This document shows positions 5,537 through 38,018 of a stretch of 64,000 nucleotides of DNA, piece after piece. The notes beneath the pieces are model-generated. The model worked only from the letters and a program-made list of their open reading frames with translations, was not told where the DNA came from and ran no database searches. Each line of letters begins with the position of its first letter. The first letter of the stretch is position 1. The stretch spans positions 31,499 through 95,498 of the forward strand of contig JABIQM010000036.1 in assembly GCA_018699415.1 (NCBI GenBank). Reading direction: 5' to 3'. A program made the translations under genes and the position numbers. The stretch is from Acidimicrobiaceae bacterium. GTDB taxonomy: Bacteria > Actinomycetota > Acidimicrobiia > Acidimicrobiales > Aldehydirespiratoraceae.

Positions 5537-7292
5537 AGGTCCTCGGAGGAAGAACTCCGAGGCCAAGTTCTGCCAGATGCGCGGCGTCGATTGCCGACGG
5601 AGCGTTGGTCAGCGGATCGCTACCGGACTGCGTCTTCGGGAAGGCGATGACCTCACGAATGTTGGTCTCGCCGACCAGCAGCGCAGTGATGCGGTCGATG
5701 CCAAACGCGAACCCTCCGTGGGGAGGGGCGCCGAAGCGGAAGGCGTCAAGCAGGAAGCCGAATTTGGCGTTGCGCTCCTCTTCACCGATCCCCAGTAGCT
5801 CAAAGATTCTGTTCTGAATGTCTGGTCGGTTAATTCGGATCGAACCGGAGCCGAGTTCCCAACCGTTGAGAACGAGGTCGTAGGCCTGGGACCGCACGTC
5901 GAGCAGAGCGTCTCCTCCTTCGTCGAGGAGGGCCCAGTCGTCTTCATGGGGCATGGTGAACGGGTGGTGGGATGGCACCGGCTTGCCGTTCTCGTTGATT
6001 GACTCAAAGAGTGGGAAATCCACGACCCACACGAAGTTGAGGCCGCCCTCGTTGACGGGTGGACGACCGAGTTCGAGACGAAGCAGGCCGAGGACGTGTC
6101 GAACGAGACGACGCTCGTCAGCGACCAGGAACACCATGTCACCGGGTTGTGCCTTGAGCGCAGCAACGACCTGGCTTGACTCGTCGTTCGACAGGAACTT
6201 CGCGACACCAGCATCGAGTGTTGGTCCCGATTCACCGTCGATGACCTTCATCCAGGCGAGGCCCTTGGCCCCCCAGCGCTGGCAGGTTTCGACAAGGGCA
6301 TCGATCTGATTGCGGGACAGCGCTTCCATTCCGCCTTCCATGCAAATGCCCTTGATGCACGGAGCCTGAAACACGCGGGCTTCGGTGCCCTCGAAGATGG
6401 CGGTCAGCTCGACGAGCTCCATGCCGAAGCGGGTGTCGGGCTTGTCGCTACCAAATCGCTCTTGCGCCTCAAGCCAGGTGATGCGGGGGAACTCGGTGGG
6501 GCGCTCACCTGTCACGGCTTCGGTCGTAGAGGCGACGGTATGAGAGATCACGGCGAAGACGTCTTCTTGGTCGACGAAACTCATCTCGGCGTCGAGTTGC
6601 ATGAACTCGAACTGACGGTCGGCGCGAAGGTCCTCATCTCGGAGACAACGAGCGATCTGGTAGTAGCGATCGATGCCACCCACCATGCACAACTGCTTGA
6701 AGAGCTGGGGTGACTGGGGCAGGGCGTAGAACGCACCCGGGTCCTTACGCGAGGGCACGACAAAGTCGCGGGCACCCTCAGGCGTCGACGCGATCAACAT
6801 GGGCGTCTCAATCTCGACGAAGCCTTGGTCTTCCATCCCACGCCGAATAGCGCTGTTGACGATGGAGCGCGTCCGTAGGTTGGTCTGCATGCGGTTTTTT
6901 CGCAGATCGACATAGCGATGACGCAGACGGATTGTCTCATCAACGTCGGTGCGTTCGTCGAGTGGGAATGGCGGTGGCTCTGCCATAGCCAGAATTTCGA
7001 TGTCGGAGATCTCGATCTCGATCTCACCGGTCGGGAGTCCCATATTGGCGGTATCGGCAGGGCGCAGGCGAACTTCGCCAGTCATCTTGGTGACATACTC
7101 GCTGCGAAGGTCATGGCTGCGGTTGACCACGCACTGGACGATGCCCGTGCGGTCACGCAAGTCGATGAAGGCGAGATTTTCGCCATGCTCGCGGCGGGTA
7201 GCAACCCAACCGCAAACGCTGACGGTGCGACCGGCGTCGGCAGCGGTGAGTTGGCCGCACATGTCGGTGCGCATGGAGGTGGTGAGATCCAT
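5535..7292 (-). CDS. aspS: Aspartate--tRNA(Asp/Asn) ligase
   Basis: 585 aa; VSVCGWVATRREHGENLAFIDLRDRTGIVQ, RCLRDEDLRADRQFEFMQLDAEMSF, GFAFGIDRITALL motifs. Confidence 0.97.
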   Translation of the reverse strand: MDLTTSMRTDMCGQLTAADAGRTVSVCGWVATRREHGENLAFIDLRDRTGIVQCVVNRSHDLRSEYVTKMTGEVRLRPADTANMGLPTGEIEIEISDIEILAMAEPPPFPLDERTDVDETIRLRHRYVDLRKNRMQTNLRTRSIVNSAIRRGMEDQGFVEIETPMLIASTPEGARDFVVPSRKDPGAFYALPQSPQLFKQLCMVGGIDRYYQIARCLRDEDLRADRQFEFMQLDAEMSFVDQEDVFAVISHTVASTTEAVTGERPTEFPRITWLEAQERFGSDKPDTRFGMELVELTAIFEGTEARVFQAPCIKGICMEGGMEALSRNQIDALVETCQRWGAKGLAWMKVIDGESGPTLDAGVAKFLSNDESSQVVAALKAQPGDMVFLVADERRLVRHVLGLLRLELGRPPVNEGGLNFVWVVDFPLFESINENGKPVPSHHPFTMPHEDDWALLDEGGDALLDVRSQAYDLVLNGWELGSGSIRINRPDIQNRIFELLGIGEEERNAKFGFLLDAFRFGAPPHGGFAFGIDRITALLVGETNIREVIAFPKTQSGSDPLTNAPSAIDAAHLAELGLGVLPPRT

Positions 7293-7337
7293 CGTGATTC
7301 CTGATTCCTGGGGAGAGTTCGTTTGGGGGTATTGCGG

Positions 7338-8606
7338 CTAGATCGCGAGTAGTTGGTTGACTTCATACACGAGCGTGTCGAGCGCAACGCGGTGCTGGCC
7401 GGTATCGCCACGCAAATCGCGGAGCGTGACTTCACCAGCGGCGACTTCATCCTCACCGATGATGGCAGCGAAGGGTGCACCAGACCGATCGGCGACCTTC
7501 ATCTGAGCCTTCATGGAGCGGCCGCCATAGCTACGATCGGCACCGATACCGGCATCACGTAGTTCGTTGCAAACGCCGAGGGCGTGGCTTCCGCCGGTGA
7601 CGTCAACCACGAACACGCTCACGGTGGAGGATGGCATGGGGAAGACGTCTTCCGCATCGCAGGCCAACAAGATCCGATCGACGCCGAGCGCGAAACCGAT
7701 GCCGGGAGTGGCGGGACCGCCAAGGTTCTCGACAAGTCCGTCATAGCGGCCCCCACCACCGACTGCGTTTTGGGCAGTGGCAAGCGCGTCAGCGGCGAAC
7801 TCGAAGGTGGTGCGGGTGTAGTAGTCGAGCCCGCGCACGAGTCTCGGCGAAATCCCATACGGGATCCCAAGCGCATCGAGTCCGGAGCGCACCGCAGCGA
7901 AATGTTCAGCGGTGTCATCGCTCAGATAGTCGACCATCAGGGGTGCCGCATCGATGACGGCTTGGTCTTCAGGTCGCTTCGAGTCGAGCACACGAAGCGG
8001 GTTGCGCTCAAGCGTGACCCGGCTCTGATCACTCAGGTTCGCGGCGCTGGATTCGAGATAGCCGCGTAAGGCATCTATGTACGCGGGACGGCACGACGAG
8101 TCGCCGAGGCTGTTGAGGAGCAGGCTGACCTGTCGAAGACCGAGACTCTCGTAGAACCGCCAGGCCAACGCGATCACATCGACGTCCGCTTGCGGGTCAT
8201 CGGTGCCAAGAGTCTCGACTCCAACTTGAGAGAACTGCCGATAGCGGCCGGCCTGAGGCTGCTCGTAGCGGAACTGTGGGCCCTCGTACCAGACCTTCCA
8301 CGGCGGAACCGGCCGGTGCTCGGCGTAGGCGCGGCAAACGCTGGCAGTCAGTTCTGGGCGCAACGCAAGGTGCTGCGGTGGGTCGCCCTTGTCGAAGAAG
8401 TCGAACATTTCCTTCGTGACCACGTCAGTGGATTCGCCAAGCCGCTTGAAGACGCCGATGTCTTCAAAGATCGGCGACATAACCTCGCCGAAACCACCGA
8501 GTCCGGCCTGAGCAGCGAACGCGTCGATCAGGGCGCGACGGCGCCCAGACTCCGGTGGGAGGATGTCGCTCGTGCCCTTGGGGGCCTTGAATGTCGGCTC
8601 AGCCAC
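7338..8606 (-). CDS. hisS: Histidine--tRNA ligase
   Basis: APKGTSDILPPES, RYEQPQAGRYRQFSQVGVE, GLDYYTRTTFEF. The track start (8660) lies inside a palindromic repeat; GTG at 8606 (VAEPTFKAPKGTSD) is more plausible. Confidence 0.95.
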   Translation of the reverse strand: MAEPTFKAPKGTSDILPPESGRRRALIDAFAAQAGLGGFGEVMSPIFEDIGVFKRLGESTDVVTKEMFDFFDKGDPPQHLALRPELTASVCRAYAEHRPVPPWKVWYEGPQFRYEQPQAGRYRQFSQVGVETLGTDDPQADVDVIALAWRFYESLGLRQVSLLLNSLGDSSCRPAYIDALRGYLESSAANLSDQSRVTLERNPLRVLDSKRPEDQAVIDAAPLMVDYLSDDTAEHFAAVRSGLDALGIPYGISPRLVRGLDYYTRTTFEFAADALATAQNAVGGGGRYDGLVENLGGPATPGIGFALGVDRILLACDAEDVFPMPSSTVSVFVVDVTGGSHALGVCNELRDAGIGADRSYGGRSMKAQMKVADRSGAPFAAIIGEDEVAAGEVTLRDLRGDTGQHRVALDTLVYEVNQLLAI

Positions 8607-8653
8607 AACTGTCAAGGCTACCGCTCTCGATTGGTCCCGAAGGCGGATTTGAT

Positions 8654-8688
8654 AAAGCACGTCTGGGGACAGACCCTATTCGTGCTTT
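8654..8688. repeat. Palindromic REP-like element, copy A
   Basis: AAAGCACG-tc-TGGGG-acaga-CCCta-tt-CGTGCTTT; shares core and geometry with 22742-22776. Confidence 0.6.
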
Positions 8689-8728
8689 GCTCGCCACTGG
8701 TGCACACCGGAGACTGCCCCCATGTGAG

Positions 8729-10966
8729 TTAGCTGCCGCTGGCGACTCCGGGTAGGACGCGATAAGCGTCGTACACGGCTTCGATGCTGAGTACCGACGA
8801 CAAGAGCGAGTCGAGTTGGCTCACATCGGCGAGTTCGAAGTCGAACAGCATCTTGGCGATCGCGTTGTCACCGGTGTGACTGGAGACGCCATGGACACTG
8901 AGGCCGTGGTCACTGAAGACCGTGGCAACGTCGACCAGCAGGCCCTTGCGGTCGAGCGCACTGATCTCAACCGAGGTAGAGAACCGACCCGAGTGCTCCG
9001 AGTCCCACTCCACCTCGATGAGTCGGTCGGGCTGGCCTTCGGACAAGTCGCTGGCATTGAGACAGTCGTCGCGATGAACCGAAACGCCGCGACCACGGGT
9101 GACGAAACCGATGATCTCGTCCGGCGGCACCGGCGAGCAACACCGCGACAGGCGGACCATGATGTCGTCAAGGCCTTCGACGTGAACGCCAGCTCCGTGC
9201 GTCGGACGGCGCGGTGCGCCAGTTCGACGCGTCACCGTCGATGGCAACCGGTCGGCTTCGACAGGGTGCTCGTCGTCGCCTTTGAGCTCAGCGGCAATGC
9301 GGTCGGCGACCGATGCCGCTGCTACATGGCCCTCACCGATGGCAGCGAACAAGGATTCCTCATCGACATAATTTAGCTGCTTCATAGCATCGCCAAACGC
9401 CGGTTCCTTCAGCACGCGACGGGCCGGCAAACCCTCACGGCGCATCGCCTGGATCAGATCGTCCCGCCCGTGCTCAATGGAATCCTCGCGCCGTTCTCGC
9501 GTGTACCACTGCTTGATTTTGTTAGCCGCCCGGCGGCTAGCGACAAACTTCAACCAGTCACGCGATGGGCCAGCGCCCTCCACCTTCGAGGTAAAGACCT
9601 CGACCATGTCGCCAGACTCAAGACGTGTATCAAGCGGCACGAGACGACCGTTGACCTTGGATCCAATGCAGGCATGGCCAACATCGGTATGGATCGTGTA
9701 GGCGAAGTCGATTGTCGTGGCTCCAACGGGCAACTCAACAACCCTGCCCTTCGGGGTGAAGACAAACACCTCGTCCTGGTCGAGGTCGAATTTCAGATTG
9801 GACATGAACTCCGACGGATCGGAGGTTTCTTGCTGCCATTCGACGATGCGGTTCAGCCATGCAAGGTCCCCACCGCCACCGTCTTCCTTATAATCCCAGT
9901 GCGCGGCGACGCCGAACTCAGCGCGGGCGTGCATCTCCTTTGTTCGCAACTGCACTTCAAGCGACTTGCCCTGGGGACCAACCACCGTCGTGTGCAACGA
10001 CTGATAGAGATTGAACTTAGGCATCGCGATGTAGTCCTTGAACCGTCCCTGTACCGGCCGCCACGTGGCGTGGATCGAACCGAGGGCGCCATAGCAGTCA
10101 CGCACCGAGTCCACAATCACACGAATGGCGATGAGATCGAAGATCTCATCAAAGGACCGGCCCTTCACCACCATTTTCTCGTAGATCGACCACAGGTGCT
10201 TCGGCCGTCCATCGACATGAGCGACAATTCCCAGCTCAGCGAGACGGGCCTGAACATCGCCGATCACCTGCATGAGGTACAGATCGCGCTCTGGTGCTCG
10301 CTGCTGGATCATCTGATCGATCTCGGCGTAGCGACGGCTGTGCAGAGCGGCGAACGACAGGTCTTCGAGCTGGACTTTCAGATCCTGCATACCTAATCGA
10401 TGGGCAAGAGGGGCATAGACGTCGAGCGTCTCGCGTGCCACTCGCTCCTGCTTGTGTTGCGGCATCGCTGCGATGGTGCGGAGATTGTGAAGACGATCGG
10501 CGAGTTTGATGATCAGAACTCGGATGTCCTGGGCGATCGCCACGATCATCTTTCGCATTGTGGCGGCCTGTTGCTGCTCCTTCGAGTCGTACTTGACTCG
10601 CTCAAGCTTGGTGACCCCGTCGACGATGCGAGCGAGTTCGGCGCCGAACTCCTGCTCAAGCTGATCTATCTCAACGCCGGTGTCCTCCACCGCGTCATGC
10701 AGCAACGCTGCGGCAACAGCGATGTCATCGAGTCCTTGTTTAGCCACGATCGTTGCTACGGCCACTGGGTGACGGATGTAGGGCTCTCCCGACTTGCGGT
10801 TCTGTCCCTTGTGCGCAGTGTTGGCGAGCTTGAACGCCCGCTCGATGAGATCGATCGAGGCCTTGGGATGGTGCGAGGTGTACACATCAAGCAAATGAGC
10901 AATCTCGGCGGAAGCCGGACGGCTGGCCGCTCGCCGCCAAGGAAGAACGCGGGTGACTGTGGCCAT
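8729..10966 (-). CDS. relA: Bifunctional (p)ppGpp synthetase/hydrolase (RelA/SpoT, Rsh)
   Basis: 745 aa; HD domain (ALLHDAVEDTG), synthetase (YQSLHTTVVGPQGKSLEVQLRTKEMHARAE), TGS and ACT regions. Confidence 0.96.
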   Translation of the reverse strand: MATVTRVLPWRRAASRPASAEIAHLLDVYTSHHPKASIDLIERAFKLANTAHKGQNRKSGEPYIRHPVAVATIVAKQGLDDIAVAAALLHDAVEDTGVEIDQLEQEFGAELARIVDGVTKLERVKYDSKEQQQAATMRKMIVAIAQDIRVLIIKLADRLHNLRTIAAMPQHKQERVARETLDVYAPLAHRLGMQDLKVQLEDLSFAALHSRRYAEIDQMIQQRAPERDLYLMQVIGDVQARLAELGIVAHVDGRPKHLWSIYEKMVVKGRSFDEIFDLIAIRVIVDSVRDCYGALGSIHATWRPVQGRFKDYIAMPKFNLYQSLHTTVVGPQGKSLEVQLRTKEMHARAEFGVAAHWDYKEDGGGGDLAWLNRIVEWQQETSDPSEFMSNLKFDLDQDEVFVFTPKGRVVELPVGATTIDFAYTIHTDVGHACIGSKVNGRLVPLDTRLESGDMVEVFTSKVEGAGPSRDWLKFVASRRAANKIKQWYTRERREDSIEHGRDDLIQAMRREGLPARRVLKEPAFGDAMKQLNYVDEESLFAAIGEGHVAAASVADRIAAELKGDDEHPVEADRLPSTVTRRTGAPRRPTHGAGVHVEGLDDIMVRLSRCCSPVPPDEIIGFVTRGRGVSVHRDDCLNASDLSEGQPDRLIEVEWDSEHSGRFSTSVEISALDRKGLLVDVATVFSDHGLSVHGVSSHTGDNAIAKMLFDFELADVSQLDSLLSSVLSIEAVYDAYRVLPGVASGS

Positions 10967-33508: not shown

Positions 33509-36430
33509 TTAGTTGTTGCTCTCTTGTTGCACGAGTAAGGCACGAAATTCAGATGCTGGCATCGGCTTGTGGAAGAAATATCCCTGGGCTCGTTTGCATC
33601 CGAGACCGGCCAGAATCTCTACCTGATCTTGATTCTCGACGCCTTCCGCAACGACGTCCAGATTCAGTGCGCTGGCGAGCGACAAGATCGAGTTGATAAA
33701 CGTCACACTTTCGTTGTCAGTCGCCAGGTCGTTCACGAACGACTTGTCGATCTTGAGTGAATCCACCGCCAGGCGCTTGAGATACGAGAGAGAACTGTAT
33801 CCAGTGCCAAAATCATCCAACGAGAGCCGCACGCCAGACCTACGGAACTGATTCAACACGCGCACGGCTTGGTCGAGATCTATGATCAGCGCTGACTCGG
33901 TAACTTCCAGACAGAGCCGTGACACCGGAAGGCCTGTGCTGACCAGCACGTCCGCCACCCGCTTTAGTATCAGTTCATCTTCGTCACAGACCTGCTCTGC
34001 AGCCATGTTTACCCGTAGAACAGGCGCTTGGAGCCCTCCGGGCCAAGATGCAGCTTCTTCGCACGCTTCGGCGAGAACGAGTTCACCGATCTCGGCTATC
34101 AGCCCTATCTCCTCGGCTTCTTCGATGAATTGTCCGGCGGCAAGAAGACCACGCTCGGGGTGGCGCCACCGAACCAACGCTTCGGCACCGACGATCTCCC
34201 CGCTGGGCATCGATACCTCAGGCTGATAGTGCACACAGAATTCACCACGAGCCAGCGCATGTCTGAGTTCGCCCTCCATGCGCATACGGAAATGGATCTC
34301 TTCCTTCATGCCCTTGTCAAATACGGCAAGTCTCCGTCCACCCGCTCCCTTCGCCTTGTACATCGCCGCATCCGCTTCCAGAAAGACGCCTTCAATGTCG
34401 CTATCGATCGTCGAGTACGCAATCCCGGCGCTCAACGACGGGTAATGCCGGTGCCGGCCAAGCACCATGACTGACCCGACGCTTTCGATGAGTTCGTGGA
34501 CAAGTTTCCGGGTTTCCGCGTCGCTGATCGGTCCCTTGAACGCAATCGCGAATTCATCGCCCCCAAGCCTGGCCACGACGTCGCCTGGGCGGATATGAGT
34601 CGCGCATCGGTCAGCAATCCGCCGAAGGACGGTATTTCCCGTCGCGTGTCCAAGTGAGTCATTGACATACTTGAATCTGTCCAGATCCATGACGACCAGC
34701 GCAGATGAACCCGAATCGCTTTGCATGTCAGCAAACTCACGACGTAATCCACGTCGGTTGAGCAACCCGGTGAGTTCATCGTGCTCTGCGAGAAACTCGA
34801 GCCTGCGTGCCGCCTTGCGACGTTCAGTGATGTCCAACGCGTGCACGAGAATAAACGACTCGTCCTTTACCGGCTCTACTCCCACACATCGGATCTGAGC
34901 GAGGATCGGCCGCCCTTGTGGACCCCTGTAGACCTGGATTTGCGACGTACCACCGTCGCTAGTTTCAATGGCTGTGTTCGTGGTTTCGTTGAACATCCAA
35001 GCAGAAGACGTTCGGAACTCTTGAGCGACGTCGGCAAGGCTCTCGAAGAGGACCTTGTCTGGTTTTGTGCCGAGCAAAGAATCGACTGATGGCATACCAA
35101 GCATGGACACAAACGCACCATTGCAATCAAGGATCCGAAGATCCTCCTGGCTCCGGAGCACAATCGGAATCGGAGAAGAGTCAAGAACAGCCGAGGCGCG
35201 TGATTCGACGACCAAGCGGTTCTCGACCAACGAAATAGTCGCGCTCATGCGCTGGAGGGCCTCAACATTTCCGCCGTCCCACACGGCGGTTTCAACAGAG
35301 CCGGCAACAATGATCGCGGAGGGGTGGTCCGGATCTCCACGAGGCATCGCGAGCTGCTTCCGAAGCTCGAGTATGGGCTGATCAGACTTTGCCAACGTTT
35401 TTGTCAACCGTGCCGAATCCAGCAGATCATGGGTCCCAAATGGGACCTTTGTTCTTACCTCGCGAGGCGTGAGGGATTCATGCAGCCACATCCGGGTACG
35501 GACATACATCTGGTTCGGGTAGTCGATGTACCAATCGGAAATAGCTGGAAACTCAAGTAATTCAGCCGTCTCTGTCAGCGCCTTCAGGAGCAGTTCATCG
35601 AAGTTCTCAGGGGAGGCCGCCATCAAGGCGGCTGCGCTTTTCATCAGGCTGCCGTGATCGCTCATACGACGTTCGCTTGAAGTTCTGAGTTCAGCCTCAG
35701 CGTCTATGCGGCGCAAGAACTGCGCGAGCAGGATCATTAGTCCGCGGAGCAGGTAGTTCACGCTTCGATCCATGTCGTACCCAGATCCAGCGGCGGTAAC
35801 AGCCGCTATTCTGAGCGTCCCGTCCACCTTGGCGAACACTCCGGCGTGGATCGACACATCATCGCGGTCTTTGCTATCGCCGTCTTCGCCGTCAAAGAAG
35901 GCATCGACATCAACCAAGGCTTCGTTCAAGGATGACTTGATCACTGCCCCCGTTGCGTCAAGAGACGCCAAACGCTCGACGTAGTCTCGCCGGATCGAAC
36001 CCGGACCCGCAGATGGGAGTCGGGGTTGCGAACTCAGGAGAGGCCGCCAGTTGTGCACGAGGCGGAGTTCCAACGAACTAGCGTCAATTTCCCAGATCCC
36101 GACTCCCCTCGCTCCACATGCCAAACCGAGAGACTCAATTGCAGAAAAGATTGCTTCGCCAGCTTTGTTGAGACTCGCGCCGTTTAGATCATTGCCGATC
36201 TGCCAAAGTACGTCGTGATTCGATGCCCGTTCCCTGGCCTGAACCCGATCCAGTTCCTCTGTGAGGCTAGCGGTGAGGTCGTTAAGGTCAAAGAGTTGCC
36301 TCTGGAGCATTCTCTTTGCTTCATTCGCCTGCTCCAGCTTTTCGCTTGCGATCTTCTCCGCTTCCAGGCGCGCAGTCTTTTCGCGCTTCGCGCGCTGCGA
36401 CAACCGTTCGAGGCGATCTGAATCGCTCAT
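33509..36430 (-). CDS. Multi-domain GAF/PAS-like sensor with GGDEF and EAL domains (c-di-GMP synthase/phosphodiesterase), H-NOX-associated
   Basis: N-terminal coiled coil; PAS-like region; RPGD-VVARL-GGDEF (I-site + active site); GAEALVRWRHP, EVTES, DDFGTGYSSLSYLK, AEGVEN, QGYFFHKP. Confidence 0.95.
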   Translation of the reverse strand: MSDSDRLERLSQRAKREKTARLEAEKIASEKLEQANEAKRMLQRQLFDLNDLTASLTEELDRVQARERASNHDVLWQIGNDLNGASLNKAGEAIFSAIESLGLACGARGVGIWEIDASSLELRLVHNWRPLLSSQPRLPSAGPGSIRRDYVERLASLDATGAVIKSSLNEALVDVDAFFDGEDGDSKDRDDVSIHAGVFAKVDGTLRIAAVTAAGSGYDMDRSVNYLLRGLMILLAQFLRRIDAEAELRTSSERRMSDHGSLMKSAAALMAASPENFDELLLKALTETAELLEFPAISDWYIDYPNQMYVRTRMWLHESLTPREVRTKVPFGTHDLLDSARLTKTLAKSDQPILELRKQLAMPRGDPDHPSAIIVAGSVETAVWDGGNVEALQRMSATISLVENRLVVESRASAVLDSSPIPIVLRSQEDLRILDCNGAFVSMLGMPSVDSLLGTKPDKVLFESLADVAQEFRTSSAWMFNETTNTAIETSDGGTSQIQVYRGPQGRPILAQIRCVGVEPVKDESFILVHALDITERRKAARRLEFLAEHDELTGLLNRRGLRREFADMQSDSGSSALVVMDLDRFKYVNDSLGHATGNTVLRRIADRCATHIRPGDVVARLGGDEFAIAFKGPISDAETRKLVHELIESVGSVMVLGRHRHYPSLSAGIAYSTIDSDIEGVFLEADAAMYKAKGAGGRRLAVFDKGMKEEIHFRMRMEGELRHALARGEFCVHYQPEVSMPSGEIVGAEALVRWRHPERGLLAAGQFIEEAEEIGLIAEIGELVLAEACEEAASWPGGLQAPVLRVNMAAEQVCDEDELILKRVADVLVSTGLPVSRLCLEVTESALIIDLDQAVRVLNQFRRSGVRLSLDDFGTGYSSLSYLKRLAVDSLKIDKSFVNDLATDNESVTFINSILSLASALNLDVVAEGVENQDQVEILAGLGCKRAQGYFFHKPMPASEFRALLVQQESNN

Positions 36431-36969
36431 GACAACGCGTCTAACACCTTCACTATGAATCGGGCATCCGTGGGCGACGACGCACCCAGCGGTTCTATCT
36501 TAGTTTCTTCGCCGTAAAGGTCCCCACCGCCCACGATGAGTCCTTGGGTCGACGCCAAGAGCCTCCTAGCGGAGACATAGTGGCCGAGGATCCCGTCATC
36601 AATCTCGGAAAATTTATGCATAGGCAGAACCACTCTAGAATACGACAACTCCACCTCCGGATGGATGATGTCATCGACGGAACGCAATAGCTCCTCCGCA
36701 CACAGAAATTGAGCAGTGACGTTACCCAGGCGTTTGGTGCGTTGAGGGAGCAAGTGTCGGCCAATGAGCCTCAAGGGGTCATCAATGCTCTGGCCAAGCA
36801 GAGCCCCAGCCACAGCAACCAGCGCTTCGGTATCTGCTTCCTCGTAGTTTCCGAGTGCGGTATAAGCAGCGCTCACGCCGCTGTTACCAAGCAAAATATC
36901 CCATGTGTCTTCCCCATAGAGTCCGAGCACTGTCTCTTCAACGGCGTGGAAAATAACCCCTTTGAGCAC
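36427..36969 (-). CDS. H-NOX (HNOB) haem nitric-oxide/oxygen sensor protein
   Basis: MLKGVIFHAVEETVLGLYGEDTWDILL; IIHPEVELSYSRVVLP (proximal His); HYVSARRL (YxSxR); ATGA overlap with the GGDEF-EAL gene. Confidence 0.9.
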   Translation of the reverse strand: MLKGVIFHAVEETVLGLYGEDTWDILLGNSGVSAAYTALGNYEEADTEALVAVAGALLGQSIDDPLRLIGRHLLPQRTKRLGNVTAQFLCAEELLRSVDDIIHPEVELSYSRVVLPMHKFSEIDDGILGHYVSARRLLASTQGLIVGGGDLYGEETKIEPLGASSPTDARFIVKVLDALS

Positions 36970-37217: not shown

Positions 37218-38018
37218 TTAAGGGCCAGCCGCGCCGAGGACGTCGGCTGACGACCGCCGCTCGGGCATCTCGGGAGTGCCGGTGGATTGCAGGGTCTCAG
37301 CGGCGGCCGTCTTTGCTTTGGTGGCGTACTCGTTGACGTAGACCTGTCCGGTGAGCGCCCGGATCTCGAACATCAACTCATCGGTCATCTGCCGGTATCG
37401 CAAGCGAGCGTCAGTGACCGATGTCGACTCCGCTGGATAGATCGGCCGACCGAATCGAATTTCAGCAGGGCGGAAACACTTGGGCATCGATGAGCCGCGC
37501 GGCTGTATCGCCCTGGTGCCGAGAATGCCGACCGGGATGATCGGCGCGCCGTTGGACACCGAGAGGCGGGCTACCCCGGTATGCCCCTTGTGCAATAAGC
37601 CGAAGCGAGAACGGGTGCCCTCGGGATAGATGCCAAAGAGGTGCCCACCATCGAGAACCTCGGCCGCCGCGTCGAGCGCACGCGTCGACGCGTCACCGCC
37701 ACTGCGGTCAATCGGGATCATTCCCAGCGCAGGAAACAGGCGGCGAGTCTTCCAGTCGTCAAGGTACTCGGCCTTGCCAACGAAGAAAACCGGGCGGCCG
37801 GCTACCACAGGCAGAAAGAATGAATCGATGACCGAGTTGTGATTGGCAGCGAGAATCGCTGGCCCGTCGGTCGGGAGTTGGTCACGACCGACCACCTTGA
37901 TTCGCCAAAGAAACGAAAATAGCGGACTCATGATGGAGAGCACCGCCTGCTGCAGACTGGCTCCTTCCGGCGGTGAAATCGTGGCGCTCATGGGGTCCCC
38001 GGCCGCATCATTCCTCAT
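37218..38018 (-). CDS. 1-acyl-sn-glycerol-3-phosphate acyltransferase
   Basis: ILAANHNSVIDSFFLP (NHxxxxD), LFGIYPEGTRSRFG. Confidence 0.92.
   Translation of the reverse strand: MRNDAAGDPMSATISPPEGASLQQAVLSIMSPLFSFLWRIKVVGRDQLPTDGPAILAANHNSVIDSFFLPVVAGRPVFFVGKAEYLDDWKTRRLFPALGMIPIDRSGGDASTRALDAAAEVLDGGHLFGIYPEGTRSRFGLLHKGHTGVARLSVSNGAPIIPVGILGTRAIQPRGSSMPKCFRPAEIRFGRPIYPAESTSVTDARLRYRQMTDELMFEIRALTGQVYVNEYATKAKTAAAETLQSTGTPEMPERRSSADVLGAAGP

Follow-up and report, generated by a model that had tools for sequence, protein, structure and literature searches.

What does an H-NOX gas sensor do next to a cyclic di-GMP enzyme in an actinobacterium, and how might its signal reach that enzyme? The question is raised by a pair of genes at positions 33509-36969 of the window, a 64,000-nucleotide stretch from an Acidimicrobiaceae genome. 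The original prediction, which gave the pair this same extent, read it as a link from nitric oxide (NO) to c-di-GMP. That link, like the coupling of the two genes, draws support from domain profiles, protein fold, synteny in a second genome, a paralogous pair, and the adjacency of H-NOX and GGDEF-EAL genes across the family. We lean toward the view that the two genes form an NO-to-c-di-GMP switch of the H-NOX/DGC-PDE (diguanylate cyclase/phosphodiesterase) kind, in which NO-bound H-NOX, docked on an N-terminal coil of its partner, would shift that partner from synthesis to hydrolysis. The features are collected in Table 1.

Table 1. Features of the H-NOX/GGDEF-EAL locus, in positions of the window
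Feature	Position	Strand	Basis
H-NOX (HNOB) protein, 180 aa, GTG start	36427..36969	-	Pfam, PDB, fold, conserved columns
ATGA overlap, H-NOX stop / GGDEF-EAL start	36427..36430	-	Sequence; same overlap in orthologous locus L013, 4827-4830
973-aa partner: coil, GAF-like (?), GAF-like (?), PAS, GGDEF, EAL	33509..36430	-	Pfam, translation, model
H-NOX-partner coil, partner residues 5-43, RxxREKxARxxAExIA...	36302..36418	-	A3 profile; helix in model
Two weakly defined GAF-like regions, partner residues 71-410	35201..36220	-	Not significant in Pfam
PAS domain, partner residues 413-538	34817..35194	-	PAS_8 Pfam match
GGDEF (diguanylate cyclase) domain with RPGD I-site, partner residues 548-699	34334..34789	-	PF00990 and motifs
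EAL (c-di-GMP phosphodiesterase) domain, partner residues 721-956	33563..34270	-	PF00563 and motifs

The sensor gene is readily recognized. Its product matches the Pfam HNOB profile (PF07700) with 75.9 bits (E 4.4e-21; cut-off 25.5) over profile positions 1-162 of 163; the NCBIfam search returned no model for it. The nearest PDB sequences are the H-NOX proteins of Shewanella woodyi (6ocv, the top match) and S. oneidensis, and an AlphaFold model (pLDDT 71) finds its best fold match in the latter (4u99; TM 0.81, E 7.8e-11). Conserved columns retain the proximal His103 (IIHPEV), Pro116, and the haem-propionate motif YxSxR (Y131-x-S133-x-R135). Profile, fold, and haem-pocket residues thus agree on the identity first assigned: by sequence and model, this is a standalone H-NOX, predicted to bind haem and NO. 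The 3-Cys zinc site is absent from the protein, which has a single Cys near residue 90, in mid-protein, and none in its C-terminal part; zinc-redox sensing was ruled out because these cysteines are lacking.

The partner gene begins within the end of the H-NOX gene, an overlap that can be read directly from the sequence, as originally described. Its catalytic half is unambiguous, with Pfam matches to GGDEF (E 3.9e-33) and EAL (E 1.6e-70). The I-site lies intact five residues before the GGDEF motif (RPGD-VVARL-GGDEF), and the translation contains EAL, RVN, EVTES, DDFGTGYS, KIDKSF, AEGVEN, and QGY, among them every motif that the original prediction had listed. Active-site residues of both domains (GGDEF, RxxD, EAL, N, E, DD, K, E, and Q) are present. 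The protein scores far under every equivalog cut-off in NCBIfam.

Between coil and catalytic domains the picture is less settled. Of the profiles searched, HNOB, GGDEF, EAL, and PAS found matches, the last as PAS_8 at residues 413-454 (E 1e-7; 32.1 bits against a cut-off of 21.8); GAF had no Pfam match in the window protein at E<=1. The GAF_3 profile gave a sub-threshold match in one paralogue (E 0.004), residues 71-250 have a GAF-like order of secondary structure in a low-confidence model, and a PDB sequence search with the GAF-like regions returned no significant match. GAF domains are therefore possible. An AlphaFold prediction of residues 1-545, made from two sequences, has a mean pLDDT of 42 and is usable only for residues 3-68, a well-predicted helix. 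The multi-input node for NO, light, and redox envisaged earlier thus reduces to one supported PAS domain and two unproven GAF-like stretches; redox input found no evidence, and light or phytochrome-type input was rejected because no domain match supports light sensing.

How, then, might H-NOX act on this enzyme? A candidate contact point, on which the original prediction was silent, is the charged N-terminal helix of about 40 residues that we call the coil (consensus LERRxxRERxARxEAExxAERxxRxLYxANxEL). It occurs on both GGDEF-EAL enzymes and histidine kinases partnered with H-NOX, at loci in Actinomycetota, Campylobacterota, Alpha- and Gammaproteobacteria, and Bacteroidota; kinases are among the H-NOX partners in other actinobacterial families. 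Three profiles, grown from seeds picked by eye from partner genes, were searched against sets that excluded their sources. Profile A1, from 14 coils of which none came from the window's family, had nine matches in the 51 family genomes. All nine adjoin an H-NOX gene, in 9 of the 10 H-NOX genomes and in none of the 41 others (Fisher 3e-9). Profile A2, from six non-actinobacterial coils, had eight matches in 396 Acidimicrobiia genomes, seven of them next to H-NOX and the remaining one marginal at E 0.006 (Fisher 3e-10); both Fisher values are optimistic because related genomes are not independent. Only 1 of 150 Campylobacterota genomes has H-NOX, so the reciprocal test was run on six named non-actinobacterial records (7.3 Mb). 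There profile A3, whose eight source coils are actinobacterial but come from other families, had six matches, every one beside H-NOX, including a rhizobial partner initially scored as lacking the coil.

GGDEF has 12 matches in the window's own genome, yet A3 scores the two H-NOX partners highest there (E 3.9e-4 for the window; E 2.9e-8 for a second pair, described below). Among 518 open reading frame N-termini from the loci, the best 27 are all H-NOX partners, at 12.9 bits or more, although eight of these were coil training sequences; the next best scores 3.4 bits, against 19.5 bits for the window partner. The window copy is nonetheless a weak member, since A1 and A2 both missed it at E<=0.01. 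Nor is the coil universal: the Coriobacteriia-like H-NOX loci (a guessed taxon) and the second H-NOX copy of family f59 have no coil-bearing partner. Judged by sequence, the coil is a mark of H-NOX partner proteins across distant bacteria. It may already have been described, for example in the 2018 HDX-MS mapping of the Vibrio cholerae H-NOX/kinase interface.

A separate observation concerns rhizobial annotation. At the Bradyrhizobium and Sinorhizobium plasmid loci (L064 4990-5400; L062 4960-5400) the partner's coil and the GAF-GGDEF region downstream of it are read in different frames, a frameshift that arose by sequence error or by mutation. In Bradyrhizobium, the coding sequence as annotated omits the coil.

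The surroundings of the pair are conserved. A plsC-like acyltransferase gene (37218-38018) is next upstream, 248 bases from the H-NOX gene, and the neighbors, which we take to be housekeeping genes, have been named as threonyl-tRNA synthetase and genes of mycothiol and phospholipid metabolism. Their order is kept in a second genome (G019, record JAACCU010000010), where locus L013 holds orthologous H-NOX and GGDEF-EAL genes with the identical ATGA overlap. Both genomes also carry a paralogous H-NOX/GGDEF-EAL pair (L015 and L016), likewise overlooked before; L015, that of the window's genome, lies on contig C87 at 5838-9289 of G000. A GGDEF-EAL gene adjoins H-NOX at L013, L015, and L016, and at every family H-NOX locus read save L020, whose neighbor is an untyped, coil-bearing protein of 455 residues.

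Between window and orthologue, H-NOX shows a dN/dS of 0.33 and the partner one of 0.23; eight neighbors range over 0.02-0.17. By this measure both genes are under purifying selection, yet change faster than their housekeeping surroundings. Within the partner, dN/dS is 0.17 for the coil, 0.39 for the first GAF-like region, and 0.11 for EAL, so that the coil is one of the protein's more constrained segments.

HDX-MS experiments locate the kinase contact of H-NOX on helices A-C and F (PMC7108781); a 2022 review knew of no structure of an H-NOX-partner complex (PMC8738867). Given this kinase-binding surface, the sharing of one coil that is itself constrained, and a well-predicted helix, docking on the coil with transmission along the helix is proposed. 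We propose that the A-C/F surface finds its natural match in the coil that unrelated effectors share, and this coil may serve as the docking element of the window partner. A broader idea, on which we are evenly divided, is that standalone bacterial H-NOX proteins in general dock on such a coil and signal through it: effectors would be NO-responsive by virtue of carrying it and would have been swapped under a fixed interface, the window locus being one actinobacterial case. The H-NOX tree puts the window clade in one group with H-NOX proteins from other families whose partners are kinases (support 83/79, modest); this is compatible with effector exchange behind a retained coil, though not proof of it.

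The resulting model begins with NO, which would bind the ferrous haem held by His103. Binding would reorient the two H-NOX subdomains and alter their seating on the partner coil (residues ~5-43). The coil continues into a helix of about 65 residues, which would relay the signal, via the GAF-like/PAS region, as far as GGDEF and EAL. If S. woodyi is a guide, NO-bound H-NOX would turn cyclase activity down and phosphodiesterase activity up, and so NO would lower c-di-GMP. For the window pair, haem and NO binding, gas selectivity, physical docking, direction of control, and output behavior are inferred; gene and domain content, intact catalytic and haem-ligand residues, the conserved pairing, and the recurrence of the coil on H-NOX partners are what the sequences show. 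Precedents for H-NOX control of c-di-GMP enzymes come from S. woodyi, Legionella, and Dinoroseobacter; the direction of control, less synthesis and more hydrolysis with NO, is borrowed from the first of these and could differ here (PMC8846402). Nor can NO-dependence be assumed, because in one report the Fe(II)-NO H-NOX of Caulobacter crescentus does not inhibit its kinase (PMC12329717).

Each step of this model can be challenged. The coil might be a generic dimerization helix of GGDEF and kinase proteins, tied to H-NOX by common descent of the partner gene rather than by docking; it is after all a charged helix, coils are common, and the partners within one clade are related by descent. Descent, however, sits poorly with a coil found on effectors as unrelated as histidine kinases and GGDEF-EAL enzymes, with profiles from one group that match almost only beside H-NOX in others, with its absence from the H-NOX-negative family genomes, and with the ranking of both H-NOX partners above the other GGDEF proteins of the window's genome. 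We judge this reading unlikely. The gas is also open to challenge, since responses to O2 or to oxidation are on record for some H-NOX proteins (PMC8738867; PMC7108781). That the window H-NOX senses O2 or redox state and not NO appears very unlikely to us, given the missing 3-Cys zinc/redox motif and the behavior of standalone H-NOX of this kind, which are NO sensors in the cases studied. Furthermore, the Tyr found at position ~140 of the O2-binding T. tengcongensis H-NOX is replaced by other residues in this protein and its relatives.

A more specific challenge comes from the window H-NOX itself, whose accelerated change had previously gone unmentioned. With the two paralogues as outgroup, it carries 21 private changes against 7 in its orthologue (p 0.013), and partner changes are even (37 for the window and 34 for the orthologue). 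Its branch in the H-NOX tree is 5-6 times longer (0.42 versus 0.075), and it has altered conserved columns (L77R, L109S, P111S, and F118H) that orthologue and paralogues keep. By these comparisons the window H-NOX, but not its partner, evolved faster than the orthologue. The lost positions and long branch suggest that its haem binding could be poor or its signaling altered; relaxation, retuning, and loss of haem affinity are all conceivable. Carried further, the protein would be abandoning gas sensing to become a haem-poor or haem-free structural subunit, leaving NO to the intact second pair on contig C87, whose HNOB match is stronger (112 bits versus 76), as is its coil. Against this outcome, which we consider improbable, stand the retained proximal His, Pro116, and YxSxR, a dN/dS still below 1, and an intact reading frame and overlap. 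An NO-responsive switch remains the reading that we prefer.

Known systems place this switch in context. Among the closest is the S. woodyi SwH-NOX/SwDGC pair (HaCE), source of the top PDB match, in which a standalone H-NOX likewise adjoins a bifunctional GGDEF-EAL protein; the window locus differs in being actinobacterial. Its partner protein is also much longer than SwDGC, since a PAS domain and GAF-like regions separate the coil from GGDEF. In Legionella (plasmid locus L067; Hnox1-Lpg1057 in L. pneumophila) H-NOX also overlaps a coil-GGDEF-EAL gene, but this gammaproteobacterial partner has only 506 residues, with no intervening PAS or GAF-like region. The H-NOX/HnoK pairs of Shewanella, Vibrio, and Caulobacter share the sensor family. 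Their output is a kinase acting via a response regulator, whereas the window partner would be a direct DGC/PDE; the likeness in the coil rests on kinase-type partners at L042, L065, L066, and L068, not on HnoK of the named species.

The original prediction also held that H-NOX is uncommon in Actinobacteria, and the counts bear this out: 10 of 398 genomes of the phylum sample, 16 of 396 in the class Acidimicrobiia, and 10 of 51 in the window's family. Rarity is right, but absence from the literature is not. A published sequence-similarity network already includes H-NOX from Acidimicrobiaceae, Nocardioidaceae, Micrococcaceae, and Mycobacteriaceae (PMC8738867). Its group 3 (Acidimicrobiaceae and others) shares sensor family and bacterial class with the window but is published only as a network cluster of uncharacterized function, and groups 2-4 are described with a 3-Cys motif that the window H-NOX lacks (PMC8738867). 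Because actinobacterial H-NOX is already in print, the locus belongs to a known kind, the H-NOX/DGC-PDE pair, in a bacterial group unusual for it, an under-studied phylum; the same 2022 review found no functional report of NO sensing by H-NOX from gram-positive bacteria (PMC8738867). It thereby offers an actinobacterial H-NOX system to test. The shared coil, a concrete candidate for the docking site, could account for the control of unrelated enzymes by a single sensor family; it also serves to pick out H-NOX partners, and might be used in the construction of NO-controlled enzymes.

Other arrangements came to light in the survey. The second, divergent H-NOX copy of family f59 (L045, L047, and L051) has no kinase or GGDEF partner, and is followed in all three loci by a conserved 157-residue protein. 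Loci L069, L071, L073, and L076, from other Actinomycetota, form a distinct H-NOX group (MACL..HVKSTK) with no adjacent effector gene. Finally, a 748-residue protein at L052 (3314-5560) has a GGDEF match and, at its N-terminus, a weak match to HNOB that falls below the cut-off (E 7e-4); here an H-NOX-like domain may be joined directly to GGDEF.
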